DNA of 64,000 nucleotides, from assembly GCA_037447655.1 (NCBI GenBank), contig JBBHKE010002555.1, forward strand, positions 122,001 to 186,000, in the 5' to 3' direction. Shown piece by piece: positions 37,001 to 60,199 of the stretch (position 1 is its first letter; each line of letters starts with the position of its first letter). A model generated the notes under the pieces. That model did not search any database and was not told where the DNA came from. It saw only the letters and a list, made by a program, of their open reading frames with translations. The translations under genes were made by a program, and so were the position numbers. The DNA is from Zygnema cylindricum (taxonomy: Eukaryota > Streptophyta > Zygnematophyceae > Zygnematales > Zygnemataceae).

Positions 37001-37014
37001 GAGTGTTGTTTCTA

Positions 37015-37925: not shown

Positions 37926-38054
37926 TGCAACTGATCTATTTTCAGCTTCAAACTGATGCAACTGATACACATGCAACAGATGCAGATGAGTCTCTGAGCT
38001 AGAGCAAGAGGAGGAGTTATTTGCTATGGCGGCAGTCATGGAGGGTCCCAAGGA

Positions 38055-38294
38055 TGCAGGATGAATCATGGACACGGGAGCATCGTCCACATGTGCTGGA
38101 ACAAGGCGGCTTTTACAAATCTGCAGCAAACACCTCCAAAGAGTATCTACTATGCTTGGGGCATGAGTGTTCAAACCTCAGCTCGCGGTGATGTATCTTT
38201 GATGGTAGATGTGGGAGGAAAGTCGGTAGAGAGAACTCTTCACAATGTTTTGTATGTTCCAGACTTTAAAAAGATTTTTTCTCTACATCTTTAG
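38055..38294 (+). pseudogene. Copia-A protease remnant
   Basis: The active-site block IMDTGASSTC (about 38065-38100) is in one frame, while the following part MCWNKAAFTNLQQTP to LHNVLYVPDFKKIFSL is in another, so a frameshift lies within the active-site region. A stop sits just before the DTG. Inactive. Confidence 0.75.
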
Positions 38295-38392
38295 TGGAGA
38301 ACCAAGGCTTTGAAGTCATTCTGAAATGAGGTAGAAAGGTTGTTAGCAAGAAAGGAAAAGTAGCGGTAACAGGAACTAGAGATGCTAGCAAA

Positions 38393-39187: not shown

Positions 39188-39727
39188 GATAGATGGAAAC
39201 TGGAGGCTAAGGGCTTACTTGGGATTTTCATGGGGTATGATGATAATGCAAAAGGATATAGAGTTTTTGTATTTGAGAAATAGAAATATCCAGATTAAAG
39301 ATGAACAGGATTTGGTTGACTTATTTAAAGTGCCAGATCAACAGGAAAAAGGAAAAACAGGAATATGTTATTTTTCACCATACACAGCGAGTCTACTTTC
39401 CACCGGCAAGTGGGACACCTGTTCCTTCAGTTCCTCTGGTGCGTTCGCAAGATGCTTCACCACAAATTACAACTCAGACTGAAGGAACTGCTACACAGTC
39501 AGTACCAGCTCAAGTTACTGTACAAACAAAGCTGAAAAATCAGAGGTTGTCGACGATTTCACCCTCAGAATTTCCGGGGGGAAAGAGATCTAGCAGCCAC
39601 CTGCAAGCAAACTCTCACTTTGCTCTCTCACTTTGCTTTTTTTGCAGCTACAGAGGAGCCTCTAATAATTCAAGAGGCCTTCTCATCACCTGAGAGAAAT
39701 CAGTAGATCGGGGCGGCAAACGATGAA

Positions 39728-40540
39728 ATGAAGTCTATTATGGAAGCGCAGACATGGGAGCTGGTGGATCTTCCTCCAGGCAGAAAAGCCATCGGCAGCA
39801 AATGGGTATTCAAGGTGAAGCTGAACCCGGACAACACCATTGAAAGGTATAAAGCCAGACTAGTGGCCAAAGGGTACAATCAGAAAGAAAGTATTGACTT
39901 TGAAGAAACCTTCTCTCCAGTTGTCAGATTTCTCACTGTCATAATTTTGCTAAGTTTAGCGGCTATAGAGAATATGGAAATACATCAAATGGATGTTAAA
40001 ACAACCTTCTTGCATAGAGAGTTAGAAGAAACCATTTATATGAAGCAACCTGAAATATATGTAGAAAAAGGAAAGGAAGAATTAGTGTGTAAGTTGATGA
40101 AATCTATGTATTAGCTAAAACAAGCCCCGCGTCAATGGGATTTGAAGTTAAATCAGTTTTTGACTGGGCTAGGTTTTAAGAGAATTAGCTCAGATCATTC
40201 TGCATATGTCTTACAAGGGGAGGATGGGATACTAAACATTGCTGTATATGTGGATGAATTATTATTAATAAGTAAGTCACTGGATGAAATTAACCGCATT
40301 AAAGCGGCTTTAAGGTCTAAGTTTGAGATGAAAGACCTCGGTGAGGCCAAGTATATTTTAGGTATATAGGTAGAAAGAGACAAAAACAAAAGATTGATTA
40401 TGTTGACTCAAAAAGAAGCAATAGGTAACATGCTGGGAAAATTTGAAATGAAAGATGTAAAGGGATCTGTAACTCCCATGGAATTCAAGCAAAAATTGGA
40501 AGGAATTGATTCAGACTCAGCATAATGGTTTGTAAGAGTT
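39728..40540 (+). pseudogene. Copia-A reverse transcriptase, broken
   Basis: Segments 39728-40114, 40142-40369 and beyond carry WVFKVKLNPDNTIERYKARL, VAKGYNQKESIDFEETFSPV, HQMDVKTTFLHRELEE, and the catalytic box AVYVDELLLISKSLDE, where active copia RT has YVDD. Stops fall at 40112-40114, 40367-40369 and about 40523. Inactive. Confidence 0.9.
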
Positions 40541-40689
40541 TAGAGATAAGGGAGGAAGAGTTTATGGCTTCAAAGCCATATAGAGAGGTAGTTGAAAGTC
40601 TTATATATTTTATGAATTATACGAGACCCGACATTGTAGCAGCTGTGGGAGTCTTGAGTAGAAGTCTGCAGAATCCTAAACAGACAGAC

Positions 40690-41230
40690 TGAGAATGGCA
40701 AAAAGGGTGTTGAGGTATCTTGCATGTTCTCGAAATCTTAAGCTTGTACTCGGAGGAGAGGTGAAAATACAGACGTGGAGCGATGCTACCTATGGAGACA
40801 TGCCAAGCCGGGAATCTACAACCGGCTTTGTTCTGAAGATTGGAGATGGAACTTGCTGCTGGAGTAGCAAATTACAAAAGGTTACAGCTCAATCCACAAT
40901 GGAGTCAGAATATATGGCAGCAGCTTCCGCCCCCAAGGAGCTCTTATGGGTCAAATCCATTTTACAGGAACTTGGATATATGCAAACAGGTCCTCACGCT
41001 ATTTGATGTGACAACCAGGCAGCCATTGCAATTGCCTCTAACCCCAGCCATCACTTTAAGAGCAAACACATGGATGTTAGACTTCACTTTGTCAAAGAAA
41101 AAGTACTTGCAAAAGTCATTAAATTGTGTTATTTACCGAACGAGAAGATGGTGGCGGACATGTTAACAAAAGCCCTTCGTGCTCCTAAGTTACAGTTTTG
41201 CAGAGAGGCTATTGGACTAAGTGAGTAACT
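40690..41230 (+). pseudogene. Copia-A RNase H
   Basis: AKRVLRYLACSRNLKLVLGG, WSDATYGDMPSRESTTGF, LQKVTAQSTMESEYMAAASA, then after a stop at about 41005 the rest in the same reading (CDNQAAIAIASNPSHHFKSK, EKMVADMLTKAL). The ends agree with the copia RNase H domain, which degrades the RNA strand during cDNA synthesis. Confidence 0.85.
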
Positions 41231-41263
41231 GAGTCTAAAGATTTAGGGGAAGATTTAGGGGAG

Positions 41264-42310
41264 TGTTGAAAATTAGAAATCTTTATTTCAGTAGATAGGG
41301 TTGTGAGAGGACACTAGAATAACTTAGAATATTTTCTAAGTAGTCTGTTGTAGTACTTACCTTATTTAGTATTACAGTAGCAAAAGTACAATAGAGTGTA
41401 TTGTACTTTTACAGGGACGCGCGTCGCAAGAGAAACGTATGCAAGTTTTACGGAGTGGCGCCGACAATCAGTTACACGCGTCACGCAGGAGACGATTGGA
41501 TTCACCGGATCAAACGAACGGAATCTGAACCGGTTATTTCGGAAATATATGGTACGGTTCGACGTTATGATCATTGATTGAATTCGTGCCAACGGACGCG
41601 ATTCACCTGGGACCACAACCGTGATTCACTTGGGACCACAAGCGTGATTCACGTGGGACCACAAGTGACTAAGCACTCAGGTGCTTCGTACTACAATGCC
41701 ACAGTCAGCTGGACTTTAGCAACCACCGCTGACTAAGCACCTGAAATATTTATTGTAAGGTTCGCTATTTGAAAATATTTGAAGAACATTGTTTTGTAGT
41801 TTAGTGTAATAAAAAAATAGTGTTTCAGTAATTAGGCTTTTGGAAAATAATAATTAGGTTTTTGGAGGTACTCACGGTACAGTAAAGTACAGGCTGGATA
41901 CTTTGTCATAAGTCAAGATAGTTTTGTAGTACAGTTACCCGAATTAGTGTGACCAGAAGAAACTCATTGTGAGTATATAGTTTAGGTCTTAGCCAATTTA
42001 GGACTTAGCCAATTTTGTAGTATCCAGTTTTGGGAATATGATTTTCTAAGGGTTGTTTTTGGGAAACATCCAGACATCATATCTTATGGTTTACTGGGTC
42101 ATTTGGGCTGCAATTTTGGTAATTGTAAGTTTACTGTGTTGTGTATCACTGTGACAAATTTGAGGCATATTGGCCTTTTGAGTCATATTTTGTGTTGGAT
42201 CAAAGTTGGCTGTTGAGTAGGTGTTTTGATAGTTTCAACTGTTTTAATGTCTACTTCCACCACTACTGGTGGTTCTCCTCCTGCAACGGTGTTTGTAGAA
42301 CAACACTAGA
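41264..42310 (+). mobile_element. Second copia-A LTR plus start of gag
   Basis: It matches 35918-37075, including the gag ATG region (ATGTCTACTTCCACCACTAC at 42247) and the following residues, but ends soon after at about 42305. The 83-bp unit is present once, with a small 27-bp duplication instead. Similarity past the gag start means this is more than a 3' LTR: it looks like the beginning of a second tandem element. Confidence 0.8.
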
Positions 42311-44282: not shown

Positions 44283-44929
44283 GTAGTTGTAGTAGATAGG
44301 GATTGTGAGAGGGAGATAGGACTTAGCATTTTTTAGTAGTCAGTCACCTCTCCCTTTGAGAGTTTGTATAAATTGGCATGTTTGCCACCTCATAACTTAT
44401 CGGGTGGTTGGCCGTTTTTATTGATTCTTTTTGCTACAGACTTAAAGGAGTCCAGACTACACAAGGGTGCAGTCAGATTATCATTTTGTCTACTTGGGCA
44501 GTAGTGGTTGTGGATAAAAGTGGGTAAGCTAAAAACTACTTAGAGGCTTCCATAATTATGTAGTCCAATGGAGGACACAAAATTGCATGTTATGGGCCCA
44601 CCCTCTAGGGTGCCCATCTTCAATAGATTTGGGTTCATCTATTGGGAAGCCACGATGACAGGGGCTTTGTGCGAAATACGATACTAGGGTATTATCAGTG
44701 GACAAGTGAAACGTACCTTAGGGAACTCCACCAGGGTTTGGTGGAATAAGGTTTTTCTACAACAGCATCTGCTGCTGCAGAGGAGACAGATGATGAGGAC
44801 AACAGTGTTTCCAAAAAAATGAAAGAGAAAGAGACACCTATTACTCCTATTGCTCTTATTACCACGACACCCGGAGCGGCGACCGTGAAGACTGCGGAGA
44901 TGTCGAGCGTGCCAGGGAACCGGGAGGTT
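44283..44929 (+). pseudogene. Copia-B LTR/leader and gag start (copy 2)
   Basis: GATTCTTTTTGCTACAGACT (about 44421) matches the leader of the 60-kb copy. Then ATGGGCCCACCCTCTAGGGT (about 44594) encodes MGPPSRVPIFNRFGFIYWEA, matching MGPPSRVPMFNGTNFTYWEF at 60.1 kb. A Glu/Asp- and Thr-rich stretch continues to about 44929, where the gypsy element begins in the other orientation. Fragment only. Confidence 0.75.
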
Positions 44930-45089: not shown

Positions 45090-45120
45090 ACCCCCCCAGA
45101 TTTCCCCCCCCCCCTCTTAG
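45090..45120 (-). other. Polypurine-tract candidate of the gypsy element
   Basis: On the minus strand CTAAGAGGGGGGGGGGGGAA followed by ATCTGGGGGGG lies just after the pol stop. A polypurine tract primes plus-strand DNA just ahead of the 3' LTR. A diverged counterpart (GAAGGAGAGGGGGGAGGGGA) occurs at 63749-63768. What follows it here does not look like the LTR start, so the assignment is tentative. Confidence 0.4.
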
Positions 45121-45148
45121 TCCCACGTGACTAAGAGGATTAGACAGA

Positions 45149-48100
45149 TTAGCCGCCAAACTCGCAGTCCCCACAGAACCACTGATTTGCGGGTTGAGAG
45201 CGGGGCTCCCAATTCAGAGGTAGGCAGCAGTCATGCCACCCCTGGTGACAGTGGTCACACACCAACAGGAGGTCAGGTACGGAGGACACAGGGCAGGCAG
45301 AGGAACAGGCTGGAGGATCTGCAAAGTAAGTGAGGTGGAAAGTGGGTTCATCCTCCAACCCTCGTAGATGGCAAGGAGCCACATTGATCTGATTTTCTTT
45401 AATTTTGCGGCCATCCTTCCCTTCCAAGGTAAGAACCCCTTTGTTTGATACCTCCACAACTTTCAGAATCACCCGTCCGGCCGAAATGTCCAAAGTATCC
45501 TTCTTCTGTTGCATGCGATACACAAAATCCCCGGGCACGAATCGCCGTTGTCGTGGGACATAATTGCCGCTCCGTCGTTGGGAATACCAGAGTTGATCTC
45601 TGTGCTGAGCAGCCTGTAAATTGCCCATGGCCAGAGGTATTTCCCGCTGAAATACCTTGGCCCTGTCGGCAATCAATTTCTCTACCGTCCCCCGGTTGTC
45701 CATCTCCGGAAGCACAACCGCCTGAGCCGACGCAGCCCCTGGTAGGATGGGATGTCTACCGAAGAGAATGAAGTAAGGGCTATAGGAGTGGAGAGATGCC
45801 TGCCTGCTGAACCTGTACCCCATGGCAATCCAAGGTACCCGTGTGTCCCATTCCCCCAAATCCTCTTCTACCGCATATTTCCGTAGTGACCGCTTCACTG
45901 TCTGTACGCACCTCTCGGCCAATCCGTCGGCTTGGGGGTGGTCTCGGCTGGTCAACCTGTGGTCAATGAGGCACTTCTCCAGAAGGTTAGAAAATTCTCC
46001 GGCAAACTCTGACCCCTGATCCGTCAGAACTTCGGCCGGTGCTCCAAATTGAGACAACACTCTCTGCAAGAATGCGTCCGCGATAGCTTTGGACTCCTTT
46101 CGGGGAAGAACCACCAATTCAATCCATTTGGAGAAGTGTTCAATCATGACCAGAACAAAACGGTTCCCCCTCCGGCTAGTGGGAAGTGGTCCTAGCAGAT
46201 CAAGTGACCACCTGTAAAACATCCCCCGGATGGGGAGGGAGTGAAGCTCAGTCCCACCCTTTTTGTCAAAAGCTGCTTTTACCCGGTCACAGGAAGGGCA
46301 CGTCTGCACCACACGATTGACCTGGGCCCGTAACCCATGCCACCAATACGACCCTGTGACTAGCGAGGTGGTTCGTTTCTGTCCGAAGTGCCCGCATTGC
46401 TGGTGAAGCCGAACAATGAGCGTTTCCCGATTTGCCGGAGGAGGAACCACTTTCCTCGTCCCATCGGCCCATTTCCGGAGAAGGATGCCTCGGTCCCATT
46501 CATAAGCCGCCATTCGGTTCTGAACACGGGACAATTTACTCCCGGCAAGGTGGGGTAGAGGAGAGCCATTTTGGATAGATTGGAGGGAATCGTTGTCATT
46601 CCATATATCCTTCCGACCGGCTCCAATGGGGGCCTGCCCCTCTACATCTGCAGCAAAAGTTGACAGTTCTCCTTCGGCCCGAGGCAGCCAAATAAAAGCA
46701 GAGGAAGCCCGGATAAGTCCCAGACTGAGCTCAGGGTCCTCGTCGTGCCGCGCCCCAGTAGAGTCTCTGGTGGAAGGGTCCGGATTCCTGCTGAGTCCGT
46801 CGGCATTCCCATGAATCTCCCCGGCTCTATGGATGATGCTGAAATCATATTCCTGCAAGATGAGAACCCATCTGGCCAGCTTTCCAGTCAACTTACTGTT
46901 CTCCATGATCCATTTGAGGGGCTGGTGATCCGTAATAAGGGTGAAGTGTACTCCATAGAGGTAAGGCCGGAAGTGCTGGATGGCCCAAACCGCGGCGAGT
47001 AATTCCCCATGGTAACTGCTGTAATTCCCCTCGGCTCTGTTATTACTCCGGCTTGCGTAGGCCACTACGTACTCAGCCCCTGCATCGTCCAATTGAGCCA
47101 AAACTGCTCCCAATCCGAACCTGCTCCAATCTGTATAAAGGAGAAAAGGCCGCTGGTGATCGGGCATCCGGAGCACAGGATGCTGTTTGAGGGAATCCTT
47201 CAGGAATTGGAACGCTATCTGCTGTTCTTCCTTCCACTGCCACTCCTGGTCCTTTCGCAACAATTGGTTCAATGGCTGAGCGTGGCTACTGAATTCAGGA
47301 ATAAACCGCCGGTAATAGTTGGCAAGGCCCAGGAAAGTACGAAGAGCAGAAATGTCCTGCGGGGGTGGAAGGGCGTCTAGGGCAGCCACCTTCACCATGT
47401 GGGGACCCACTGTCCCGGGAGTCACCTCATGACCCAGATAAATAATTTTCTGCACCCCAAAGATGCCCTTCCCCGGGTGACACTTCAAGCCCGCTGCTTG
47501 GAGTGCCCGGAGAACGATCTGTATGTGCTCCAAGTGTTCTTCGAATGTCTTGGAGAAAATAATAACATCGTCGATATAACACCGTGCGAAATCAATTCCC
47601 TGGAGAGCATCGTCCATGGCCCGTTGGAATTTGGCAGGTGCATTCTTGAGGCCAAATGGCATGTACAACCATTCATATAGTGTGGATCCGGCCCAAAAAG
47701 CATTCCTCTCTCGGTGTTTCGGCTCCATTGCAATCTGGTGGAATCCATTTTTCATATCCAAAGTAGAGTAAATGGTGGCCCTAGCAAGAGCGTCGAAAAT
47801 CTCTTCCGGGGTAGGCATAGGATAACGGTCGGAGACCGTCGCCGCGTTGAGCATCCGATAGTCCCCACACATTCGGAAATCTACAGTTTTTCCGGAGGAG
47901 TCTTTCTTTGGCGGGAGCACGGTTGGTGAGGCAAACCCATGTAGTCCTGTACTCACCTGAACCAGACCAGCTTCCACCAAAGTCTGCATCTTTGAAGTGA
48001 TGAACTCCTTCTCCTTGAAACTGAAAGGGTACTGTTTCTGCCAAACAGTAGCCGTCTCGTTAATCAGGTCAATCCAAAAAGGAGTTCCCTTATAGATCCC

Positions 48101-48163
48101 TACATCTGTGTCAGACCAGGCGAACACTTGCCAGTTCTCTTCTAACAGCTTGGAGAGCCGGGC
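45149..48163 (-). CDS. pol: Gypsy pol: RT-RNase H-integrase with C-terminal PHD-like finger
   Basis: Open from about 48163 (after a TAG) to 45149; no ATG near the start, so it is probably made by frameshift from the methyltransferase frame. Numbering from 48127. RT: LDMKNGFHQI at 123-132 and YIDD at 184-187. RNase H: D333 (YTDWS), E375, D400, D443. Integrase: zinc part H575/H580/C610/C613, then D643 (SLDLLGP), D703 (TDQGSEF) and E738 (DGLAERC), a normal DD35E spacing. The last 50 residues hold CDHCHQGWHDCC and WFCGDC, typical of the second half of a PHD finger, with an upstream C-x3-C. All catalytic residues are kept. The protein would copy and insert the element; the finger might bind histone tails (inference). 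Confidence 0.93.
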   Translation of the reverse strand, partial: ARLSKLLEENWQVFAWSDTDVGIYKGTPFWIDLINETATVWQKQYPFSFKEKEFITSKMQTLVEAGLVQVSTGLHGFASPTVLPPKKDSSGKTVDFRMCGDYRMLNAATVSDRYPMPTPEEIFDALARATIYSTLDMKNGFHQIAMEPKHRERNAFWAGSTLYEWLYMPFGLKNAPAKFQRAMDDALQGIDFARCYIDDVIIFSKTFEEHLEHIQIVLRALQAAGLKCHPGKGIFGVQKIIYLGHEVTPGTVGPHMVKVAALDALPPPQDISALRTFLGLANYYRRFIPEFSSHAQPLNQLLRKDQEWQWKEEQQIAFQFLKDSLKQHPVLRMPDHQRPFLLYTDWSRFGLGAVLAQLDDAGAEYVVAYASRSNNRAEGNYSSYHGELLAAVWAIQHFRPYLYGVHFTLITDHQPLKWIMENSKLTGKLARWVLILQEYDFSIIHRAGEIHGNADGLSRNPDPSTRDSTGARHDEDPELSLGLIRASSAFIWLPRAEGELSTFAADVEGQAPIGAGRKDIWNDNDSLQSIQNGSPLPHLAGSKLSRVQNRMAAYEWDRGILLRKWADGTRKVVPPPANRETLIVRLHQQCGHFGQKRTTSLVTGSYWWHGLRAQVNRVVQTCPSCDRVKAAFDKKGGTELHSLPIRGMFYRWSLDLLGPLPTSRRGNRFVLVMIEHFSKWIELVVLPRKESKAIADAFLQRVLSQFGAPAEVLTDQGSEFAGEFSNLLEKCLIDHRLTSRDHPQADGLAERCVQTVKRSLRKYAVEEDLGEWDTRVPWIAMGYRFSRQASLHSYSPYFILFGRHPILPGAASAQAVVLPEMDNRGTVEKLIADRAKVFQREIPLAMGNLQAAQHRDQLWYSQRRSGNYVPRQRRFVPGDFVYRMQQKKDTLDISAGRVILKVVEVSNKGVLTLEGKDGRKIKENQINVAPCHLRGLEDEPTFHLTYFADPPACSSACPVSSVPDLLLVCDHCHQGWHDCCLPLNWEPRSQPANQWFCGDCEFGG
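48111..48163 (-). promoter_or_regulatory. Overlap and possible +1 frameshift zone between methyltransferase and pol
   Basis: The methyltransferase frame ends with CTG GTC TGA (48113-48111). The pol frame is +1 to it and is open from 48163, giving an overlap of about 51 nt. Pol has no initiating ATG near its start. Programmed +1 shifting, possibly at the terminal GTC-TGA, is a reasonable model but is inferred only. Confidence 0.45.
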
Positions 48164-49715
48164 CTAGCTGTGGGTCTAGCTGTTCCCCTAAAGTCCAGTC
48201 CATCTTCCCGGGTTCCACTGCCGCCAATGCTTCCGGTGGTCTCCCCAAGAGAGAGATGTCGAAGTTCAGCTCTACCAGTGGGTCTGTCCTTTGTTCGGCT
48301 GTTAAAACGCTGCTGCTGACAACTTCCTCTAAGCTGTCCTGTTCTGAGACTCCGTTCCCCCCCACTAAGGAAACTCCTATGTCCAGTGTGCCATTGCTCC
48401 CCCCCACTGAGGGAGTTCCTGGGAATTTGGTGAATGTGAATTTTTCCCTCCTTGTCTCTCTCCCCCCCTCAAGCTTTAGAGTTGCTTGCATGGCCAACAA
48501 CTGTGGAGCTTGAAGGTATGTTGTCCGTGATTGTGGAGACTGAAGGCTTGAGAATGCAAGAGAATGTTGCAGCACCCAGGAAATTGCATTTAAATCCATA
48601 CTTTGTCCGATTAAACTGCACCTTTTTGAGGCCGATACCCCTGGCGCAGCTGTGGTTCCCTGTGGAAATCCCATTGCTTGTTCCCGTTCTGCAATATTCG
48701 GCGCTGTCCACGTGGTGGTGGTACTGTCAAAGATCATTCCTGGTGCGCCTTTCCGGTAAGCGTGGCTGTTAGGAAAAGATACCAGAGTTGGTAGGGCCCT
48801 CCGTGGATATCCGGGCTTATTACAACAGAAGAAGGGTGCTTTGTCGGCTGTGGTCACCGGTGTGGCCATTCGCCCCGGTCCGAGGATCTGTTGGACTGTG
48901 ATGTTGGGATCCGGAACCTGTTGTCTCAACAGCTGTTGGAGGATTGGAAGAGGAACCAAGTTGGTCCAATATGCCCGAACTCTGTGGGCTCTGGATCCTA
49001 TCTGAGCTGCATCAAAAACTATTGGAGTTCCTAGAACCTTGGTCACTTGGTTCCAGCTGTTGACTACCTGTTTTCTCTTATCATCTGTGGGGTGAACGTT
49101 CTCCAAGACGTACCCCACTGGTGTGTCCTGGCGTTCCTGTAACCCTGTTATTAGTCTGGTCATTTGAAAGAAAGTTCTGCTACGGACGTCTTGGTGTCCT
49201 CGGCCCTGTCCTGCTAACGAATACCCCTGGCATGGCCATCCCGCGACCACCAGGTCTACCCTTCCGAGCTTTTCCAAATGGGAATCCGTGATATTGTCCA
49301 CATTCTGGGGAAGCGTGCGATGAGAGTTAGACATGGCGGACACCGGGAGTTGCTGTGGGTAAAGTTGGTGCAGCTGTTGCAGGCGGTACTCACTGACTGC
49401 ACGGGCGTCCGGGTCAATCTCGACTGCCGAGTAAGTTTCTACTTGGTATCCAGCTTTCAGGACGGCTTCCAGATCGGAACTAATGCCAGAAAATAGGGAT
49501 AGAATCCTAAGTCCTGAAAGCGGGATTTGTAGTGACACCACTTGTCGATTGAAGTCTTTCCCTTTGTTAGGAATTGTTGGAAGTTCCGACCGGGGGACTT
49601 TTGCTGCTCCGGGTGATATTGCAGCCAAGCTCCTGTCCACTTCCCGCCGAAGTGTGGCCATCTGTACCAATCGGTTCTGATACTCCCTTTCCCACCGCTT
49701 GGAAATAGGGAATTG
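48111..49715 (-). CDS. C5-cytosine DNA methyltransferase inside gypsy element
   Basis: In frame with the protease ORF, following its UAG. The first ATG is at 49661. Numbering from 49670: motif I ILSLFSG (57-62), acidic SAM-binding E84 (SAVEID), motif IV GWPCQGYS with catalytic Cys147, motif VI LENV (189-192), motif VIII SRAHRVRAYW (226-235), MGFP (333-336) at the end of the target-recognition region, motif X CSLIGQSMD (351-359). All signature residues for SAM binding, nucleophilic attack and base flipping are present. The layout RSRTFFQM/AHRVRAYW recalls DNMT3/DRM-type enzymes, but the PCQ (not PCN) box is like other families, so placement is open. A ~130-residue tail follows before the stop at 48111. 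Neighbours are the protease upstream and RT downstream. The reaction adds methyl to cytosine C5 in DNA. Confidence 0.95.
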   Translation of the reverse strand, partial: QFPISKRWEREYQNRLVQMATLRREVDRSLAAISPGAAKVPRSELPTIPNKGKDFNRQVVSLQIPLSGLRILSLFSGISSDLEAVLKAGYQVETYSAVEIDPDARAVSEYRLQQLHQLYPQQLPVSAMSNSHRTLPQNVDNITDSHLEKLGRVDLVVAGWPCQGYSLAGQGRGHQDVRSRTFFQMTRLITGLQERQDTPVGYVLENVHPTDDKRKQVVNSWNQVTKVLGTPIVFDAAQIGSRAHRVRAYWTNLVPLPILQQLLRQQVPDPNITVQQILGPGRMATPVTTADKAPFFCCNKPGYPRRALPTLVSFPNSHAYRKGAPGMIFDSTTTTWTAPNIAEREQAMGFPQGTTAAPGVSASKRCSLIGQSMDLNAISWVLQHSLAFSSLQSPQSRTTYLQAPQLLAMQATLKLEGGRETRREKFTFTKFPGTPSVGGSNGTLDIGVSLVGGNGVSEQDSLEEVVSSSVLTAEQRTDPLVELNFDISLLGRPPEALAAVEPGKMDWTLGEQLDPQLGPALQAVRRELASVRLV

Positions 49716-49725
49716 CTAGATAGAA
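49700..49725 (-). promoter_or_regulatory. Candidate leaky UAG between protease and methyltransferase frames
   Basis: The protease frame stops at TAG 49718-49716, followed by CAA TTC. The same frame then stays open through the methyltransferase. The classical readthrough signal is UAG-CAR-YYA; here UAG-CAA-UUC matches all but the last base. This would give a protease-methyltransferase fusion at low frequency. Alternatively translation restarts at ATG 49661. Confidence 0.5.
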
Positions 49726-51464
49726 TCAGCGATATCGTTAGAGTAATTGAACAGCTCCGAGGGGGTTGAGGCAGAGTAGACGGGATAGCATCCAGACACC
49801 GGAACAGTCGTTTTTCCCCGGTTCCACAAATCCAAGGGGACCACCACTTTTGTGCCTTCCGGATCCTCAGGGTCTGAGACTGTAACTTGTTCCTTCCATA
49901 AGCTCAACTCCATGTTCAACCTTGTCCACGTAGCCATACCCAGCAAAATTTCAAATTGCTTACCTTCCACCACTAGGAAGGGAAGCCGAATCTGCACGTG
50001 CTGGCCTGCGTCGTCAGCAAATTCGATTTCCATGGCTTTTATGATCCCATATACTGGTTGGCTGCCACTGCTGACTGTGCTCAAGCATATGTCACTTGGA
50101 CTGATTTTTGGCCGGAGTTCCTCGGGCATTTGTTGTAGCGCTGATGTAGTTATTAAGTTTGGAAGAGCTCCGGTATCCACCACTGCATCCTGGTACCCGC
50201 CGTATCCATTAAGTTTAAAATTTCCCGTCCTGTTGAGAATAAGAGCCACCGAAAGGGTCTTATAATCCCTATCTGCCATAGAAGTTTTTGGTTCTGCCGA
50301 CATGAAGACTGTCTTGGGCGGTTCTGCCAACGCGGCCCTTTCCCTCCTAGTGTGAATCTCTTCCCCTAATGCCTGAATGAGGGTTTCTTCGGGCAGATTG
50401 TGGGAGGAAGCCAGCGTTTTGACATGCGTCAAGGCGTAGGGCATCAAGTGTCGTACTAGCATAACTGCCGGTTTGGAGGAAGGAGGGAGAGCTTTGGGCG
50501 ATGAAATGGGTGAGTCCTCGTCTTCCGATTTCTCCTGTTCCCCCCCCCCTGCTTCCTCACTCTCTACGTCAGAATTCCCCGTAGGAGGTGTAACTGGCGG
50601 ATCTGTGGACGGTCTCTCCGCCATGTATCTGTCGAACCACTCCTGATCTGTTTCAGTGGTTGAAGTATTTCCTTTCGGCTGTGTCTTCTTGTAATCTTCA
50701 AAACCGGGAGGAAGTTTCTTCGGAGCCGGAGGAGGCGGGTTAGTTGGCTTCAGTCCCAGTCCAATGTTACTGTTTAGAAGGACTGCTCGCGGGGTAAAGG
50801 ATAAGGGGCCGGTGGCTTTGCCACTGTGGTCTTTTTGTTCTATCGGTTGTTTGTCTTTTCTTTGGGATGACGTTGTAGAGTGCAGTTGCCTGCGACTGTC
50901 CCCTACACCAACGTTCCATGCTTCGGACAGAAATGTCCTAGCATGTTGAGCCTTTGGAGGCTCCATATCCCAACCCATCAGGTCATCGTCATCTCCACCC
51001 AACGTGGTCTGCTGCTCCAGCTCCGCTAGCTTTTGTAGCAGTTCTTGTTTTTGTTTCTGCAGTTTCAGAGCCGGCGTAAGAGGTTGAGGAGTGCGGGCAG
51101 AGGATCTTAGTCGGAGAGCGGCCAGTTCTGTTGCCAAAGCGGCCAACTGAGTGCTCTGTTGCTGAATGATATGTTCCGGTGTTAGTGTGCTGGGGCTCGG
51201 TTCATTTGGAGATCGTCCCCAGTGATACAAAAGTTGCAGCGGCAGAGGATTAACGCCAGTTTCCCCTTTTCCTGTAAACAAAGCATATTGCATCATCTCC
51301 TTCAGAACCCCATTTTTTCGAAAGCATTGCCCTTCTTTGTGGCCCATGAACCCATAAGCTTCACATTTTGACCCTTCAGTAGTATACTCCCCCCTTAGCT
51401 CATTAGAGATTTGAGCGTCATCGAATTTCGGAAGTCGGATTTGTCTCAACTGGGATTGAGACAT
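49716..51464 (-). CDS. Gypsy protease ORF with zinc-knuckle-like start
   Basis: 582 codons from an ATG at 51464, immediately after a TAA in the same frame (51467-51465). Near the start CEAYGFMGHKEGQC (34-47) fits a CCHC knuckle with the second Cys replaced by Tyr. A Leu/Gln-rich probable coiled coil covers about 98-152. The middle is Pro- and Ser-rich with an acidic patch (about 300-318). The aspartic protease core is AVVDTGALPNLIT (DTG 430-432) with the partner hydrophobic-Gly loop FEILLGMAT (504-512). The protease would process the polyprotein. In phase with the downstream methyltransferase, across one UAG. Confidence 0.85.
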   Translation of the reverse strand: MSQSQLRQIRLPKFDDAQISNELRGEYTTEGSKCEAYGFMGHKEGQCFRKNGVLKEMMQYALFTGKGETGVNPLPLQLLYHWGRSPNEPSPSTLTPEHIIQQQSTQLAALATELAALRLRSSARTPQPLTPALKLQKQKQELLQKLAELEQQTTLGGDDDDLMGWDMEPPKAQHARTFLSEAWNVGVGDSRRQLHSTTSSQRKDKQPIEQKDHSGKATGPLSFTPRAVLLNSNIGLGLKPTNPPPPAPKKLPPGFEDYKKTQPKGNTSTTETDQEWFDRYMAERPSTDPPVTPPTGNSDVESEEAGGGEQEKSEDEDSPISSPKALPPSSKPAVMLVRHLMPYALTHVKTLASSHNLPEETLIQALGEEIHTRRERAALAEPPKTVFMSAEPKTSMADRDYKTLSVALILNRTGNFKLNGYGGYQDAVVDTGALPNLITTSALQQMPEELRPKISPSDICLSTVSSGSQPVYGIIKAMEIEFADDAGQHVQIRLPFLVVEGKQFEILLGMATWTRLNMELSLWKEQVTVSDPEDPEGTKVVVPLDLWNRGKTTVPVSGCYPVYSASTPSELFNYSNDIADSI

Positions 51465-51700
51465 TTAAGCGGTTTTAGAGCGTGGAGTAGGTTTATAGGT
51501 TTCCTTAGTGACCGGGGTTCGGTCTCCTCCTCCGCTTCCTTGCTTGCGTTCTTGCTGTTTCCTTGTTCTTTCCGCACGCTCCTTCTCAAACTCCTTCTGC
51601 TTGATTGCGATTTCTGGTTTGAGCTTTTGGGGGCACCTCTTCTATCCGTGACCGGGCAGGTTACAGTTCAGGCAGTCGTAAAGAAAATTTTTTTCATCTC
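51465..51700 (-). pseudogene. Gag nucleocapsid tail with in-frame UAG inside its zinc knuckle
   Basis: The Gag frame ends at 51668. In the next frame (-1 to Gag, the same frame as the protease ORF) the sequence encodes a knuckle C-x2-C-x4-H-x4-C (51674-51633), but a TAG (51644-51642) occupies one of the x positions after the His. The frame continues with a Lys/Glu/Arg-rich stretch (KQKEFEKERAERTRKQQERK) to a TAA at 51467. The overlap with Gag lies at a run AAAAAAATTTTC, a place where an indel or slippage could occur. Confidence 0.65.
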
Positions 51701-54619
51701 CCCCCATTGCAGGTTCTGGTCGGGCATCCGCTTCTTGTTTCCCCTTAAGCTTCCGCAAAGCTTGTAGTTCTCTCTGTTCGTCGTGGCTGAGCGATGTTTC
51801 CCCGGCAAAACCTGAAAGTTGGCTCTGGATTTCTCGGTAACAGCCTTTTCTCGTGCCTCGCTATTAACTAAATGATCATACAATTTCATAGCAGCCAATG
51901 AAATTTCTTGAGCTGTGGGATTCCGATCGTGTATAGCTTGACTGGCACTCCAATTGTCCAAAGCTGCCTGTCCCGTTAGCTCGAAGGAATTTCGAACAGC
52001 GACATAATATTTGGTGGCCATAGCCGGTGTATCGATGGTGGACAGTTTGGTCTTCTGGCAGAGGCTGGAGAGGCGGTTGAACAGCGTCTGGGGAGTTTCA
52101 TTCTTCAAACAGCGGAAGTCTGTGAACTCCTTGATGGCAGTTTCGTTCCTTTCTGTGTAAAGGAGTCTCCAAGCGTCCAGGAGTGTGGTACAGGGATTAG
52201 GATTGGCAACCATCCGGGTGGCCGCTTCGGCTGCTTGTACCGCCTGTAGGTGGTTGACATAGGCCCTGCCTTGGGCCTGAAGTTTCATATCCATGGTGAA
52301 AGTGGGGGTGAGAGGAGCTGCGGCTGCGGCAGCCAGGTCGGCTGCTGCCTGAAGAGCCTCGGCGTCCAGAGCCGGATCCGATATTTTGATACTAGGGGCC
52401 ATCAACAAAGGTTGACGCTCCTTATAATCGGCCAAAGCTCCTCCGGCTAGATAATTTACCATCATCGGAAACAGGGTTGTTTCAAAATCTGCTGGGATGG
52501 CTCCTCCCCTGTATTTGTTAATTTCGGACTGCGTGAAGGATTTCCACAGCAGTTCAAAATCAGAGAAAGCAATTCCCGAGTTGTCCCCGGTGAAGATCCG
52601 GACGTCTCCCATTCTCTTTTCTTCTTCGGTAAGATTGGTGAACCTGGGTGACGCTTGTCCGGTCGGGCTGACAAACTGAGCCGGTGAGATTGCCCCAGGA
52701 TCTGCTACCTCGAGATCCGAACCGGTCCCTCCTCCAATAGGAAGGGCGGTTGTATCAGCAGTGGTCCCCCCCCCCACTGAGGAAGGTCCTGCTCTTGAAA
52801 AAGTTGTATAGTCGTCTGCTCCTCTATATCCAGGAAAGGCGCGTGCTTGCCGGAGAACTTCCTCTTCCGATGGTATGTGAAGACGAGGTCTAGGTCCCTG
52901 GGGAATGGATGACGGTGGAGAAGGTGAAGACTGGAAACTTGGAGGAGGAGGGGACTGTTTCCTGAAAGGAGTCTGCTTCCTAGATCGCCTCTGGGAATCC
53001 TCAGGAGGAGGAGTTCCGGAACTAGAGGATGGCGACCGTCTGTGAGGAGGCGAGTAGACGTCGGGTTTGGGGGATAGGCGAAGTGGACCTGGTGACCCAC
53101 GGACTGCTCCCGCGGGGAAGATGGATTGTGAGGGGGAAGAGGCGTGAGGTGGTGATGGAGGAGGAGTGGTAAGTCCGAGGGAAATGTGTAGTCTCCGGTC
53201 GGGTTGTAGCTGCACCACGGCCTCCACGGTAGAAGATCCCTCGACCGAGACAAATGTAGGGAGATCTGTAGCCGAGGCTACCGGATCACTCGGCAAATCT
53301 GCACCCAACCCCTTTTTGTTAGGCCCTGTTGTTTCCTCCCCTTCCCGTTGAAGAGGAGATTCTGGTCTAGGTTCTGGTGAAGTCCGGGGATCTCGCGTGA
53401 CAGGAGGAGTTGCCTGATCCAGCGGTTGTACTTCCGTCGCAGGACCTGTTCTACGAGGAGGTGCTACCTGTCCACTAAGGATTCCCCCAGATCTCCGTCT
53501 AGCCTCCCGTATCAGGATCAGCTCCTGTTCCAATGCTCTCTTCCTTTCCTCTTCAAGGGCATCCCAATCTATTGCGACGGGTCCGGCCCCCGCCGTAGCC
53601 TTATCCTGCGATCGCAGAATCTCAACCAATTTCTGGGTGCTGCTCACCACACCCGAGAGATCCGCAATCCCCAAACCGGGTACCTCGGGGTCCGTAGGCC
53701 TTGAACGCCATAGTCCTTCGGATGGTCGGACAACTGGTGCTGAAGGAGACATAGAACTTGGGGAGATAGAGGCAGAAGGAAAGAACGGCTCTTCTTTGAC
53801 TAGGGGAGCAAATCGACCTTTGCTGTCCCGATGGTTGAACCGGAAATTTCTCTTAGGCTCAGGTAACTTCCGCTTGCTACTCCCTTCCCTGGTCCGGCCC
53901 CGAGAAGTTGCTCTGCCCCTAGAAGGTCTGCTGGTTGCAGTTTCCTGAGATATGGTGGGCTGTTGTCGTGAAGTAGGCGGCCTCTCCGGGTGCTCTCGGG
54001 CTGAGATGGGAGAGCCACTCTCGGACGAGCTACTCAGGATCTCAACTACTCCTCCCACTGGGCGTATAATCCGAGCTCGGTCACTTCTGGCAACCCGCTG
54101 CACCAGCTCCTTCTTAACCTTCAACTCATGGATATTGTGAAGGGCTAGAATCTCCTTACGACCAGGTCGGTTAGGATCTGACAAGAGTTCAGGATCCATG
54201 TATGTCTCCACTATCGGAACTTTGGATCTGGTATAACGTACCACCTCGGGAGGGTGGCCTGGGACCGCTTCCTTATGAGCCAAACCCTTCCTACGGGATT
54301 GGGGAGCAAAAGTCTGTCTCTCTACCTTCTCCGTAGCCCTAGCCCTGGCGGCCTCGGACAACGTCGGAAAGTTTTCAGGGGAAAAGACCGGAGGAGGTGG
54401 AGGAGAGGGTTGTCTCTCGGGCTGCCTCGGAGAAGTCTCAACTACAACGGGCTCGGGCATCATTCCCTTAAGAAACTGCTCAATGTTCAAAGCTGAGGTG
54501 AAAGGGACTGCTTCCTCAGACACCTGTGACCCTTCCTCTTGTGCTACCGCTTCTTGTCTCGCCTGTTCTTCCGGACGAACACCGGAAGGATCCCTATCCT
54601 GGGCTTCCCCTCCGCCCAT
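51668..54619 (-). CDS. gag: Gypsy Gag polyprotein
   Basis: 983 codons from ATG 54619. The N-terminal two thirds are Ser/Pro/Arg/Glu-rich and low in complexity, probably disordered, with basic patches (SRGRTREGSSKRKLPEPKRN). The C-terminal third has the retrotransposon Gag-type helical part: VRIFTGDNSGIAFSDFELLW, LLDAWRLLYTERNETAIKEF and NETPQTLFNRLSSLC. It would form particles around element RNA. It is long for a gypsy Gag. It ends 5' of the knuckle, which is in another frame, so either a frameshift fuses them or this copy has a small indel. Confidence 0.85.
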   Translation of the reverse strand: MGGGEAQDRDPSGVRPEEQARQEAVAQEEGSQVSEEAVPFTSALNIEQFLKGMMPEPVVVETSPRQPERQPSPPPPPVFSPENFPTLSEAARARATEKVERQTFAPQSRRKGLAHKEAVPGHPPEVVRYTRSKVPIVETYMDPELLSDPNRPGRKEILALHNIHELKVKKELVQRVARSDRARIIRPVGGVVEILSSSSESGSPISAREHPERPPTSRQQPTISQETATSRPSRGRATSRGRTREGSSKRKLPEPKRNFRFNHRDSKGRFAPLVKEEPFFPSASISPSSMSPSAPVVRPSEGLWRSRPTDPEVPGLGIADLSGVVSSTQKLVEILRSQDKATAGAGPVAIDWDALEEERKRALEQELILIREARRRSGGILSGQVAPPRRTGPATEVQPLDQATPPVTRDPRTSPEPRPESPLQREGEETTGPNKKGLGADLPSDPVASATDLPTFVSVEGSSTVEAVVQLQPDRRLHISLGLTTPPPSPPHASSPSQSIFPAGAVRGSPGPLRLSPKPDVYSPPHRRSPSSSSGTPPPEDSQRRSRKQTPFRKQSPPPPSFQSSPSPPSSIPQGPRPRLHIPSEEEVLRQARAFPGYRGADDYTTFSRAGPSSVGGGTTADTTALPIGGGTGSDLEVADPGAISPAQFVSPTGQASPRFTNLTEEEKRMGDVRIFTGDNSGIAFSDFELLWKSFTQSEINKYRGGAIPADFETTLFPMMVNYLAGGALADYKERQPLLMAPSIKISDPALDAEALQAAADLAAAAAAPLTPTFTMDMKLQAQGRAYVNHLQAVQAAEAATRMVANPNPCTTLLDAWRLLYTERNETAIKEFTDFRCLKNETPQTLFNRLSSLCQKTKLSTIDTPAMATKYYVAVRNSFELTGQAALDNWSASQAIHDRNPTAQEISLAAMKLYDHLVNSEAREKAVTEKSRANFQVLPGKHRSATTNRENYKLCGSLRGNKKRMPDQNLQWGEMKKIFFTTA

Positions 54620-54639
54620 GACTTACAAAAGCAGATAAG

Positions 54640-54780
54640 CTAGATCTCTCTGATAAAGTCCACCACCCTAAGCAGCTATCCTCTTAAACAAAGGGGACAG
54701 GTGTTGCTTTTCAGTACTGTGCTACTCCGCTGGGAACCCACTAAATGCAACACTCCCAGCTACTCTCCAAAGAATAGGAA
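54640..54780 (-). other. Gypsy leader between LTR and Gag
   Basis: Untranslated leader upstream of the Gag ATG. No convincing primer-binding site could be named. Confidence 0.4.
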
Positions 54781-55906
54781 GGGAAGGAGAGTTGTCCGAT
54801 CCGTTTCGCAAAACCTCAGGACAAACCCCAAGATAACCACAAGAGGGTGCAAATAAATCCCACGCAGAAATATAGAAATAACAAATATCGGCTTTTCAGA
54901 TTAAACAATATCACCTTGCCCCAGAGAATGGAATTAAAGATAGAAATAAATGGTAATGGTGAAGCGAATTCACATACCCCGGAGTGCAACGAGAACCAAA
55001 CTCAGCAGAAGAAAAACCTCTCCCAATGGCCCCGAAGACAGGTATAAGTCTCCCTCACCCCTCCCGGTTCCACCGCAAGGATCCGACAAGACTCTTCTTA
55101 GTTTCAAACAGCGAAAGTCCAAACCGCCCAAAGAGAAGATAGTGCCAACTACCCACCCGTTCTACGGTCTCCACAAAAGACAATCCAAAACAAAGATGGC
55201 AATAGAGTCAACGACACAATGCAAACGTTCTCCAACAGAAAGATTGATTTAATTCTCTGGGGGTTTTCTCAGGAGACAGTACTGAAAAGCAACCTGTCTC
55301 CTTCGGCCCCAAGTGCCTTATACAACCAGAGTTTGTCCTACTGCAAGTGTCAAAGTCAAAGCAATGTGACAAGCCAATCAGCGGCCAGCAATTGTTATCG
55401 TACGGACATAAGACAAAACAGACTGTACTACACTCAGGGATAAAAGTTAGACGACTGGTTCCGGCTGGATTAGCGGCCGGGGGTCCTCCTATAATACACA
55501 AAAATGGAAACAAAGTTCTGAATCGACGTGAAACCGCCTAACTTTGACCCAAAGTCATTAATGCTTTGCCCGGCTGTTGGGCCGGAACTAACATCCTACT
55601 GACAGCTAACAGTAAGATCTACGGGATAATCCCAAAGGTTACGTGTCGTTCTCGAATGTATCCCTCTACTAGAGCTACATAGAACACACAATATAAGGGA
55701 GCAGACACTGTGCACCGGACTAACTCCGTTGTTCGGCCTCCGTTTAAGGTGAACTAAATTGCGTAGTGCTCCAGAGTGAAAATATAAAGATCTGATCCGG
55801 CTAGTTGTCCTCTTCCTTCTCCGTACGCTAGAGTCCGTACAAAGTGGAATGAGGCCCCGGAACTCCTGGGGGTACAACTGTGCCGAAGATGCACACGAGC
55901 TTGACA
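54780..55906 (-). repeat. Gypsy 5' LTR
   Basis: Starts TGTCAAGC at 55906. It is related to 62568-63650 on the plus strand, with shared blocks GGAGGCCG-AC-ACGGAGTTA, GTATAAGGCACTTGGGGCCG and AAGGTGATATTGTT. About 1.1 kb; the 3' border is approximate. Confidence 0.75.
55310..55330 (-). promoter_or_regulatory. LTR core promoter (TATA-like)
   Basis: TGTATAAGGCACTTGGGG on the minus strand (TATAAGG at 55322-55316) is kept in the second LTR (63075-63081). The conserved block suggests the TATA box of the LTR and start of the R region. Confidence 0.55.
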
Positions 55907-55915
55907 GGACGTCCA

Positions 55916-56698
55916 TCAAACGATCGTCAAACGCCGAGAGAGAGGAGAGAAATGTCGAGGTGGGAGGGGAAGTACGAGTGAGGTAAGAAGGCGGTGTGGA
56001 AAACACTTGGTTAACATATCAAAAGCAACTTGGGGATCGGGAAGGTTTGGAAGGTCGTCCACTTGGGCTAGATCTGTCTGTAAAGCATCATGAAGGAATT
56101 GGGTCACGAAAGTATGTGAACCAAGGGGGCAACCAAGCACACGAATGCCATCAGAGGGAGAAGGGGTTTGAAAACCAGGAGGGGTAGTAAACGAAAGTGG
56201 AATATCCTGAGGAGACCAAATAACACACTTCGACGGCTGAACTGAAAGGTTGAGTTCCGCTAAACGTTCCCTAAAAAAATCATATGCCAACACGACTTGT
56301 TCTCTCGGCCCAATAATGTGCGTATCATCTGCGACCGAAGGAAAAAGGCAAGAAGGGAAGGCGGCTGCGGAGGCACGAAGGGCCCGGTAATGGGTAAGGG
56401 CGAACAAAGGTCCGCCGAGAGGGTCACCTTGGCGAGTGCCAGTAGCAGAGGAGAGAGGGATAATATCACCATCGGCCGAGAAGGAAAGGCTGCTTGTCAA
56501 AGAATAGAAAGCCCTCACAAAGGGGAACAATTGGACAATCGGAGATGGAGCCGCCATAAGCTCTGAAAAAATCACGTTTCGATCCACCGTATTAAATGCA
56601 TTGGAAACGTCGACTTGAAGGACCAACCAATCCGGATGTACATCCAACAAAGCCCGAATCCCATGGACCACGGCCTCACAACCCCCTCTCGAGGCCAC
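55916..56698 (-). pseudogene. LINE copy 2: reverse transcriptase core
   Basis: GGCEAVVHGIRALLDVH, LVLQVDVSNAFNTVDRN, GTRQGDPLGGPLFAL, SVADDTHIIGPREQV and LSVQPSKCVIWSPQ. All main RT motifs are present in one frame here. The block GGIRPIAVGEVLYRLVARAI is in the adjacent frame (56572-56913), so an indel separates them. Confidence 0.85.
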
Positions 56699-56885
56699 TC
56701 TAAACTGATGAGGAGAGAAATAATCATGGAAAGCCGGTTGGAGCTGGAGACAATCGCACGAGCCACCAATCTATATAAAACCTCTCCCACGGCAATAGGG
56801 CGGATCCCACCATTAGGTTTGGCGATTGCCACAAGGCGGGACGCCGTGAGAAGATCACAAATCCGAGTGGGAACATCCCCACTAG

Positions 56886-57822
56886 CTATAAGGGAACATA
56901 CTCGAAAAAACACATCGAACCCCCGGGCACCCTATTCAGGGGGCAAAACATCGCGAAACAACTCATATACTGTGCCCGAAGGGCCCCCCGCTGAAAGGTG
57001 AGGAGAAGAGCTAAGAACCTTAATGAAAACCTCCCGATCCAAAGTAAAACTCTCAGAAGGCTCAAAGGTGTTGATGGAAAGGGGTAAAGGGGAAGGGGCA
57101 GGGGGGTGGAGAGCTCGAAGGACCTCAATAGTGGAAGAAGATCAGGGGGCAGGGGTGAATGGTTGTAGGGCCCGAACCGCTCGAGAAAGCTCACCAAATC
57201 GGCCTAAGTGAATTGCTCGACGATAAGAGGCCGAGACATCCGATGGCTTAGGTGGCCGACGTGGTATGAAAGAGGTGCTTAATACCTGATCCTCATGCTC
57301 GGCGTGGAGGGACTTCCAGTCACCCCGAAGGAATCGGCGAAAACGCGCCATAGTTTCTCTAGCCCCACTGCCCCCTCCACGACTTGGAAGGACTAGCACC
57401 CAGAGAGAGAACATAAGAAGTAGGTGCCAAGGAGCAATGTCCGCCGGGTTTGAAGAAATGTGGGACAAGGGGAGGTGGAGGGCATCTTGTAGTATTGTCA
57501 TGACAGCCACAGGAATACGGGTGTACAATCGCGGGCGGGGGGCTCCCAAATCATAAGCTCCCAAAACTTCTAACTCATGTACGAAATTCCAACCCTCATC
57601 TGTGGGGCCGGACGAGAGTGTGGTCGACAATGATTGAGGAGAGGTGATAGACAAAGGACCACCCAGGGTTATACAATGTCGACAACTCCGTGTATGAAGG
57701 GAAATGCCGGCCCCAGCGGCAAAAAGGTTGTGACACCCAGGACATTCCAAACGCCTCGAAGGTTTACGAGGTTTGGGTGGAGGTGGGGGAGGGAGAAGGG
57801 AATAAGAAGGGCTTCCCGACAT
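56886..57822 (-). pseudogene. LINE copy 2: N-terminal zinc-finger region
   Basis: Starts at ATG 57822 (MSGSPSYSLLPPPPPP). A C-x2-C-x12-H-x4-C finger follows (LECPGCHNLFAAGAGISLHT then RSCRHC), probably for RNA or DNA binding. The main frame ends at about 57142 and continues in another frame to 56886, so it is frameshifted. Confidence 0.8.
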
Positions 57823-57954
57823 GGTTAATAAGTCAAAGACGACATGGGTATTGGGAGGGTGAGAGGAAGAGAAAGCGTGGGAGAGGAAAATGAACCATGT
57901 GGGATGGATGGGGAAATTGGTAGGAACCAGAATGTAACATAAAGTTTGATGTCG

Positions 57955-58165
57955 GAAAAGAAAGTGGCGGGGGGAGTGGGGAGGGGGGGAGGGGGGGGGG
58001 GGGAGTGTGGGAAGGAGAGGGTTTAAGAATCGGTTTTGGGTGTGTAAGTGGTATAGGTGAGGGGGTGGGGGGGGGGGGGGGAGGGGGGGGGGGGTAGGGG
58101 GGAGAGGGTAAAGAAATGTTTGTTTGTTTTTTTTTTTTTTATATATTAATACTTTTTGTTTTTTT
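57955..58165. repeat. Poly-G/poly-T tracts in LINE 5' UTR
   Basis: Long G runs followed by T runs on the plus strand (C and A on the sense strand), shared with 29540-29770 of copy 1. Confidence 0.85.
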
Positions 58166-58273
58166 TTTTTTTCGAGTGATTGTGTATGTGTTTTTGTGTG
58201 CATGTTTGTGCGTATGATTTTTGGAACTAACTATTTTGGGGGGTGGAGAATCAAGCGATTCACGGATAGATCA

Positions 58274-60194: not shown

Positions 60195-60199
60195 AAGAA

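Follow-up and report, generated by a model that had tools for sequence, protein, structure and literature searches.

A Conserved In-Frame UAG Precedes a DNMT3-Like Methyltransferase in a Gypsy Retrotransposon of Zygnema cylindricum

A Methyltransferase within a Streptophyte Gypsy Element

The window analyzed here, a stretch of 64,000 nucleotides from the streptophyte alga Zygnema cylindricum (assembly GCA_037447655.1, contig JBBHKE010002555.1, positions 122,001 to 186,000; G000:C1920:122001-186000 in our numbering), contains what its sequence identifies as a partly decayed copy of a Ty3/Gypsy retrotransposon that carries a C5-cytosine DNA methyltransferase (DNMT). In this family, a first open reading frame (ORF1) encodes Gag and protease and ends in one conserved UAG, after which the same frame continues as ORF2, encoding the DNMT, reverse transcriptase (RT), RNase H, and an integrase with a PHD-like finger; ORF2 has no conserved start codon. 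We consider it probable that the element is of the same kind as KnitGypsy-Dnmt3 of Klebsormidium nitens, that readthrough of the UAG would yield a single polyprotein, that the DNMT would be packaged with the RT and act on complementary DNA (cDNA) or on the insertion, that reverse transcription would be self-primed, and that the integrase would cut at a GACA-nn-TGTC joint. The element runs on the minus strand from 55906 to 44901, and its coding parts are the following (positions are those of the window):

51668..54622, minus strand: Gag frame, 984 amino acids (aa) in the window copy, without a Pfam match
49716..51464, minus strand: second zinc-knuckle-like stretch and aspartyl protease (PF13650, 19.7 bits, under the cut-off of 24.3)
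49716..49718, minus strand: in-frame UAG that divides protease from DNMT and has CAAUUC after it, conserved as TAG in 47 of 50 copies
49635..49715, minus strand: two blocks constrained at the RNA level, codons 1-9 and 22-27 after the stop (codon identity 0.94 in the first and 0.85 in the second; DNMT core, 0.54)
48111..49715, minus strand: DNMT frame, 534 open codons, with the catalytic core at about 48531-49520
45149..48163, minus strand: RT, RNase H, integrase (H2C2, rve), and C-terminal PHD-like finger (Pfam)
about 45164-45295, minus strand: the PHD-like finger itself, 18.6 bits (Pfam cut-off 24)

The complete order is thus repeat A, Gag, protease, DNMT, RT, RNase H, integrase, PHD-like finger, and repeat B. 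As in Ty3/Gypsy elements, protease, RT, RNase H, and DDE integrase are ordered on one strand, here with the DNMT between protease and RT, and an rve integrase is present instead of the tyrosine recombinase of DIRS elements. RVT_1, RT_RNaseH, Integrase_H2C2, and rve all score above their Pfam cut-offs in 45149-48163 (minus strand). The two terminal long terminal repeats (LTRs) of identical type expected of a Ty3/Gypsy element were not found, and split repeats stand in their place. The original prediction, made from the window sequence alone, had placed the methyltransferase between a protease ORF and an RT on the same strand; strand and neighbors were right, but protease and DNMT actually share one frame, split by the single TAG at 49716-49718.

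The host genome encodes a RuBisCO small subunit of the streptophyte type; among its best 120 of 1479 hits are one protein with 80% identity, Closterium as the closest named alga with 73%, and angiosperms with up to 74%, whereas looking for rbcL in the assembly gave nothing useful. In the genome searched (352,776,454 bases in 2689 contigs), the DNMT frame has at least 83 matches with 61 to 100% identity, including the window's own, two copies being matched in two pieces each; the count is a lower bound, 81 of 2158 candidates having been scored. A search for the ORF in other copies of the element had been set beforehand as a guard against an artefact, and because these many matches lie over many contigs of the same genome, both a chimeric origin of the DNMT and its being a host exon can be dismissed.

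Other copies also show which interruptions are peculiar to the window. Its Gag has a frame change near its end and a stop inside a zinc knuckle. The TAA at its Gag/protease joint was found in none of the 25 other copies examined, in all of which the joint is open, with a lysine codon, and Gag and protease are continuous; stop-reinitiation at TAAATG between Gag and protease is thereby ruled out. Likewise, the frame break between DNMT and RT (overlap 48111-48163) is absent from two other copies, whose frames run open from the DNMT through the RT for 1520 and 1525 aa, which rules out expression of the RT by frameshifting.

A Conserved UAG and RNA-Level Constraint

Unlike these interruptions, the TAG between protease and DNMT is conserved, and CAATTC comes next to it in 47 of the 50 copies. 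From 31 full copies fetched (the window's, 10, and 20), L040 was dropped because it starts too late; the codon before QFPISKRW is TAG in 29 of the other 30 and TAA in one. Twenty further small stretches have TAG (18), TAA (1), or TTG (1), the TTG belonging to L052, whose upstream sequence is unlike. Some of the 50 are near-identical (L061/L063 and L059/L064 in the printed stretch) and therefore do not count as independent cases. In the 20-copy junction set, 19 stops fall at the site and every other codon from -35 to +44 has at most two. The frame is maintained across the stop in all aligned copies, and no conserved ATG for ORF2 was found in 11 copies: the first methionine is at codon 19 in five, and the first 60 codons of the other six contain none.

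Constraint downstream of the stop was measured as codon identity, i.e., by comparing codons for the same amino acid among eight diverged copies. Identical codons amounted to 184 of 196 in codons 1-9 after the stop, 97 of 177 in codons 10-21, and 131 of 155 in codons 22-27, against 161 of 281 just before the stop and 3511 of 6504 in the DNMT core, where none of 321 nine-codon windows reached 0.94 (the top value was 0.85). On this comparison, a constraint acting at the RNA level after the stop is firm, and together with the conservation of the TAG it rules out decay as the origin of the stop. That the constraint reflects an RNA structure is a suggestion from modeling. RNAalifold predicts that the two conserved blocks pair with each other over 13 base pairs, with 99.0% of 208 cells pairing (40-69% with the partner slid), whereas an alternative fold of two hairpins pairs in 98.1% of 160 cells, shows both partners of a single position changed in 3 of 16 rows, and was matched by 9 of 500 shuffles. 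A search of Rfam gave nothing useful. From these observations we infer programmed readthrough of the UAG, with the consequence that the DNMT would be the first domain of Pol.

A DNMT3-Like Domain under Purifying Selection

The DNMT frame matches PF00145 with an E-value of 3.6e-13 and 50.1 bits (cut-off 22). Reading by eye identified LFSG, GWPCQ, LENV, SRAHRVRAYW, an AMGFP block, and GQSMDLN, of which we take LFSG to be motif I, GWPCQ IV, LENV VI, SRAHRVRAYW VIII, and GQSMDLN X. With the Pfam match, motifs I to X, and element genes on both sides, the prediction of a complete C5-cytosine methyltransferase inside a retrotransposon at 48111-49715 (minus strand) is confirmed. The motifs run along the frame in the ordinary order, not in the rearranged order of DRM enzymes. 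Among solved structures, phmmer with the window frame placed DNMT3A first (55.1 bits), followed by HhaI (25.0) and DRM2 (23.4). A profile of 27 related sequences gave 102.9 bits for DNMT3A, up to 91.2 for DNMT3B, 43.7-54.3 for DRM, 39.1 for HhaI, and 34.6 for DNMT2, and no DNMT1 or CMT chain was among its 58 distinct sequences at E <= 0.1. DNMT3 is thus the best sequence match among solved methyltransferases, and by score the domain is DNMT3-like, not DRM-like. The mixed DNMT3/DRM layout of unclear ancestry proposed in the original prediction is not supported, in view of the profile scores (103 bits for DNMT3A, 44-54 for DRM) and the motif order; the PCQ box that it pointed out does differ, in the alignment, from the PCN of DNMT3A.

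The ratio of nonsynonymous to synonymous substitution rates (dN/dS) was estimated pairwise from 31 copies for the DNMT and 21 for the RT, the pairs not being independent. The median was 0.19 for the DNMT core (63 pairs with dS 0.4-0.8) and 0.15 for the RT (32 pairs), falling to 0.08 (81 pairs) and 0.05 (97 pairs), respectively, at dS > 0.8, where dS is saturated. Among the closest pairs it was 0.49 for both DNMT (57 pairs) and RT (20 pairs), as expected of dead copies. Judged by these ratios, the DNMT is under purifying selection.

Further DNMT loci were found by a Pfam search (123 of 782 candidates scored). L126 (G000:C1344:90300-91500) is a quite different retro-type DNMT of the same broad group, with a GWECQ box, in a stop-free open frame of 2395 aa.

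Split Repeats and a Putative Self-Complementary Primer Site

The noncoding parts of the window element are the following:

54718..55906, minus strand: 5' repeat A, 1189 bp (1188 in L019), starting with TGTCAAGC and ending with GTAGCACA, beside LINE-like sequence
55276..55301, minus strand: putative RNA start and self-primer stretch inside A, soon after a TATAA box, with an 18-nt exact complement to the end of A
54703..54719, minus strand: putative primer-binding site where A ends, with complementarity to the 55276..55301 stretch
45104..45117, minus strand: polypurine tract, read in the sequence; the same tract stands directly before B1 in L017, L020, and L022
44901..45103, minus strand: repeat B1, from AAATCTGG to GCTCGACA, where the window copy stops, without A2-B2

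The window's repeat A is 91.2% identical to that of L019 over 1191 aligned columns, and the two copies of repeat A (1188 bp) are 97.1% alike in L019/L020 and 93.2% in L017/L018. At the 3' end of L017, L020, and L022, the polypurine tract is followed by B1, 2 nt, A2, B2, and flanking sequence, B1 and B2 being 95.8-97.1% alike. Three joints, GGGGGGGG/AAATCTGG, GACA-nn-TGTC, and GTAGCACA/AAATCTGG, are present in all three of these copies with A2-B2, whereas L010, L012, L023, L026, and the window stop after B1 at GACA. Around the coding sequence (CDS), three copies thus have the order A-CDS-B-A-B, which is the DIRS-like order described for KnitGypsy-Dnmt3, and five have A-CDS-B. Repeat A alone cannot be a normal LTR, because B2 follows A2 in all three copies in which the far end of A2 was read. 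Short target duplications flank L019/20 (aaaaa) and L023/24 (cagg). An inverted repeat, CCTCTTAGTC...GACTAAGAGG, stands directly before the polypurine tract (window about 45104-45135, minus strand) and is also found in L020, L022, and L017.

Exact complementarity between the stretch downstream of the TATAA box and the end of A extends over 15-24 nt in five of seven copies and over 8 nt in the other two, as against no more than 12 nt in any of 500 shuffles of the window's site. With mismatches allowed, self-pairing was found at that place in all nine copies scanned, weakly in L025, where the register is broken after about 11 nt. This complementarity argues for reverse transcription primed by the element's own folded-back RNA.

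Position of the DNMT in Related Elements

A single-sequence search returned five protein relatives and a profile search 81 (P0001 included), with Marchantia polymorpha (P0022, P0026), Calypogeia fissa (P0009), and Closterium sp. NIES-53 (P0031, P0061) as named sources. Pfam labels on 22 relatives distinguish three arrangements: the DNMT immediately before the RT; a protease-like stretch, the DNMT, and then the protein end; and RNase H or nothing, the DNMT, and the integrase, in some cases with a PHD. A careful tree was built from 51 of 112 gathered rows, including three added ones; rows shorter than 270 aa, the majority of the phage rows, and 15 proteins, mostly near-identical, were left out, and the tree was rooted on the phage/bacterial group. 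The window family forms one group (100/100) and the RNase H-DNMT-integrase proteins another (99/99), a clade in which the DNMT has its place behind RNase H. Neither of the remaining labels forms a single group in this tree; in a quick tree of 66 rows, the protease-DNMT label does. The careful tree, in which phage and bacterial rows are also present, has a single DNMT3A row, on a long branch of unsure place. We reject a phage or bacterial source: apart from L070, the 55 loci found by pattern show a likeness of 27-46% that in each case covers part of the domain; 10 of them were kept in the careful tree, where they form the group of their own used as root. A first viral scan with one protein gave nothing useful. 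The PHD of three relatives (P0023, P0029, P0036) scores 27.0-39.3 bits, and our guess would be that the finger reads histones and aims integration.

L070 (CADCWO010000201.1) encodes Gag-protease-DNMT (1093 aa), then TAG-CAA-TCA, then an RT, all in the same frame, and this TAG is the sole stop of the whole Gag-protease-DNMT-RT frame in the 4972-base locus. It therefore seems that a leaky stop is conserved in kind while the DNMT sits on either side of it. The UAG-CAA-UCA of L070 fits the published CAR-YYA context, reported as essential for readthrough of tobacco mosaic virus (TMV) in plants (PMC2754532, in extract), and lies on the other side of the DNMT than the stop of the window family. The record is filed under an uncultured Synechococcales cyanobacterium (metagenome-assembled genome), in which L070 is probably a eukaryotic contaminant.

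Proposed Mechanism and Alternatives

In the mechanism that we propose, a small share of ribosomes would decode the UAG and produce a Gag-protease-DNMT-RT-integrase polyprotein; as part of it, the DNMT would be made in step with the RT and taken into the particle alongside it. The Pol-side placement suggests that the DNMT travels with the RT. In the particle it would meet new cDNA, and its most likely job would be to methylate this cDNA, which we infer to be that of its own element, or the fresh insertion, perhaps lowering visibility or harm to the host. From such a template, standard reverse transcription would yield B-A-CDS-B-A, and if circles of this product were cut by the integrase within the repeat at the GACA-nn-TGTC joint, exactly the two observed forms would result.

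A more detailed version combines these steps: readthrough-packaged DNMT marks the element's own cDNA; integration proceeds from one- or two-LTR circles by cutting the internal GACA-nn-TGTC and not from linear ends; the joint GTAGCACA/AAATCTGG preserves the trace of a former two-LTR circle; and the dose of DNMT relative to RT has been changed by evolution, through placement on either side of the stop or behind RNase H. As a whole, this conjunction is doubtful, and we offer it tentatively. To our knowledge, retroviral-type integrases use linear cDNA ends as a rule, to which the element would be an exception if its split repeats mean integration from circles.

Several observations speak against the mechanism. 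The context CAA-UUC of the window family (47 of 50) lacks the last A of the CAR-YYA essential for TMV (PMC2754532, same extract). In the 13-base-pair pairing, no pair has changed on both sides and column shuffles do no worse, and the folds of five single copies are not significant (z -1.1 to 0.6). The PHD-like finger of the window family scores 18.4-20.9 bits, under the Pfam cut-off of 24. Target duplications were found in only two of six copies with both ends read, and none at L009/10, L011/12, L017/18, or the window. The form A-B-A-CDS-B, equally expected, did not occur at any 5' A end that was read. Finally, the KnitGypsy DNMT gave no detectable methylation in yeast, a result called inconclusive by its authors (main text of PMC5890265).

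The scarcity of target duplications would also fit an origin of the split repeats as a template-switch or tandem-insertion oddity, with no cutting of circles at the B/A joint, and so would the missing form, since a two-LTR circle cut at the other joint should give it and the 5' A ends read follow no B end except at the internal A2; yet the three joints are identical in all three A2-B2 copies, five others stop exactly at GACA, and the same repeat order is reported for KnitGypsy-Dnmt3 (main text of PMC5890265). We regard the matter as evenly poised. Less likely than not, but a serious contender, is that the DNMT does not act on cDNA and instead methylates RNA, damps its own transposition for the benefit of the host, silences rivals, or only binds nucleic acid in Pol. 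De Mendoza et al. consider RNA methylation, slower transposition, and further roles (main text of PMC5890265), with which the negative yeast result would agree; on the other hand, the DNMT has retained its core motifs, its dN/dS is near that of the RT, and its placement in Pol couples the two.

As for the stop, ORF2 might be expressed from spliced RNA, with the AG of TAG as 3' splice site and the stop ending only unspliced Gag-protease. The AG followed by a conserved stretch and the lack of a conserved ATG are what splicing would require, but the bases before the TAG are variable and not pyrimidine-rich, conservation to 27 nt past the stop and in the second block (codons 22-27) exceeds the needs of a splice site, the frame is kept throughout the alignment, and L070 has a published readthrough context, all of which makes splicing improbable. 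Ordinary decay, or decoding of UAG as an amino acid by the host, is hardly credible: most copies do have other stops and frame changes, but in the 20-copy junction set no other codon from -35 to +44 has more than two stops, as against 19 at this site, and the standard code leaves two downstream frames open, one of 1520 and one of 1525 aa, neither of which contains a UAG. Readthrough thus remains our preferred reading of the conserved UAG.

Comparison with Known Systems

The precedent in charophytes and dinoflagellates to which the original prediction pointed exists (PMC5890265). Compared with its published description (main text of PMC5890265), the window element is of the same kind as KnitGypsy-Dnmt3, with which it shares a DNMT3-related domain in a Gypsy Pol, a DIRS-like repeat arrangement, and purifying selection on the DNMT. 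It differs in its host, the UAG with RNA-level constraint, the PHD-like finger, and the self-complementary primer site, features that may nevertheless be shared: the words readthrough, PHD, Marchantia, and split are absent from that main text, to which the comparison is confined. SymbioDIRS-Dnmt3 and SymbioLINE-Dnmt of dinoflagellates are likewise DNMT-carrying retrotransposons, but of another class, with a tyrosine recombinase or of the LINE type as against the DDE integrase of the window element; the DIRS-like DNMTs methylate CG in yeast, and methylation of cDNA has already been proposed for DIRS-type elements (main text of PMC5890265).

A leaky UAG between parts of one frame is also known from TMV and has been proposed for the rice Gypsy element RIRE2, a candidate (PMC2754532, in extract); L070 fits its CAA-UYA, whereas the window family has CAA-UUC and a readthrough product that would start with the DNMT. 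A primer site complementary to the element's own RNA recalls the self-priming Gypsy elements Tf1/Sushi and Tcn1 (PMC6317226, in extract), a likeness of priming and not of RT clade; the window element has split repeats and a PHD-like finger besides.

What was already known is thus DNMT-carrying Gypsy elements from one alga, to which are added the conserved stop and a proposed expression logic, a wider distribution with liverwort relatives, the shifting position of the DNMT, and an apparently odd mode of insertion. An open-access search, outside which most subscription journals lie, found no literature describing readthrough in elements that carry a DNMT, nor any describing elements of this kind from liverworts; a 2025 paper mentions DNMT3 within streptophyte retrotransposons, citing de Mendoza (PMC12344493, in extract). 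A 2019 opinion held transposon methylases to be absent from land plants such as tracheophytes (PMC6338049, in extract); with the relatives found here, the range of DNMT-bearing elements comes to include liverwort proteins. It also becomes possible to test why an enzyme of silencing should be carried by a genomic parasite: a Pol-side DNMT behind a readthrough stop would be packaged with the RT and could act on nascent cDNA, while far larger amounts would be made by a relative that has its DNMT on the Gag side.

Neighboring Sequences and Record Labels

Other mobile elements surround the DNMT element. A related Gypsy fragment lies in the opposite orientation at 61384-63534 (plus strand) and shares with the window element 78% identity in its integrase part and about 70% in its repeat region. 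A LINE-like element with RVT_1 is present twice, at 27482-29795 and 55906-58201, and repeat A of the DNMT element begins exactly at the end of the second copy. Copia-type gag and integrase pieces flank the element (36000-42100 and 59146-60200), and a copia-like stretch lies just past its 3' end (44417-44657). Among database records, plant-type RuBisCO small subunits P0122 and P0195 are labelled Salmonella and Yersinia pestis, and these are presumably mislabelled.

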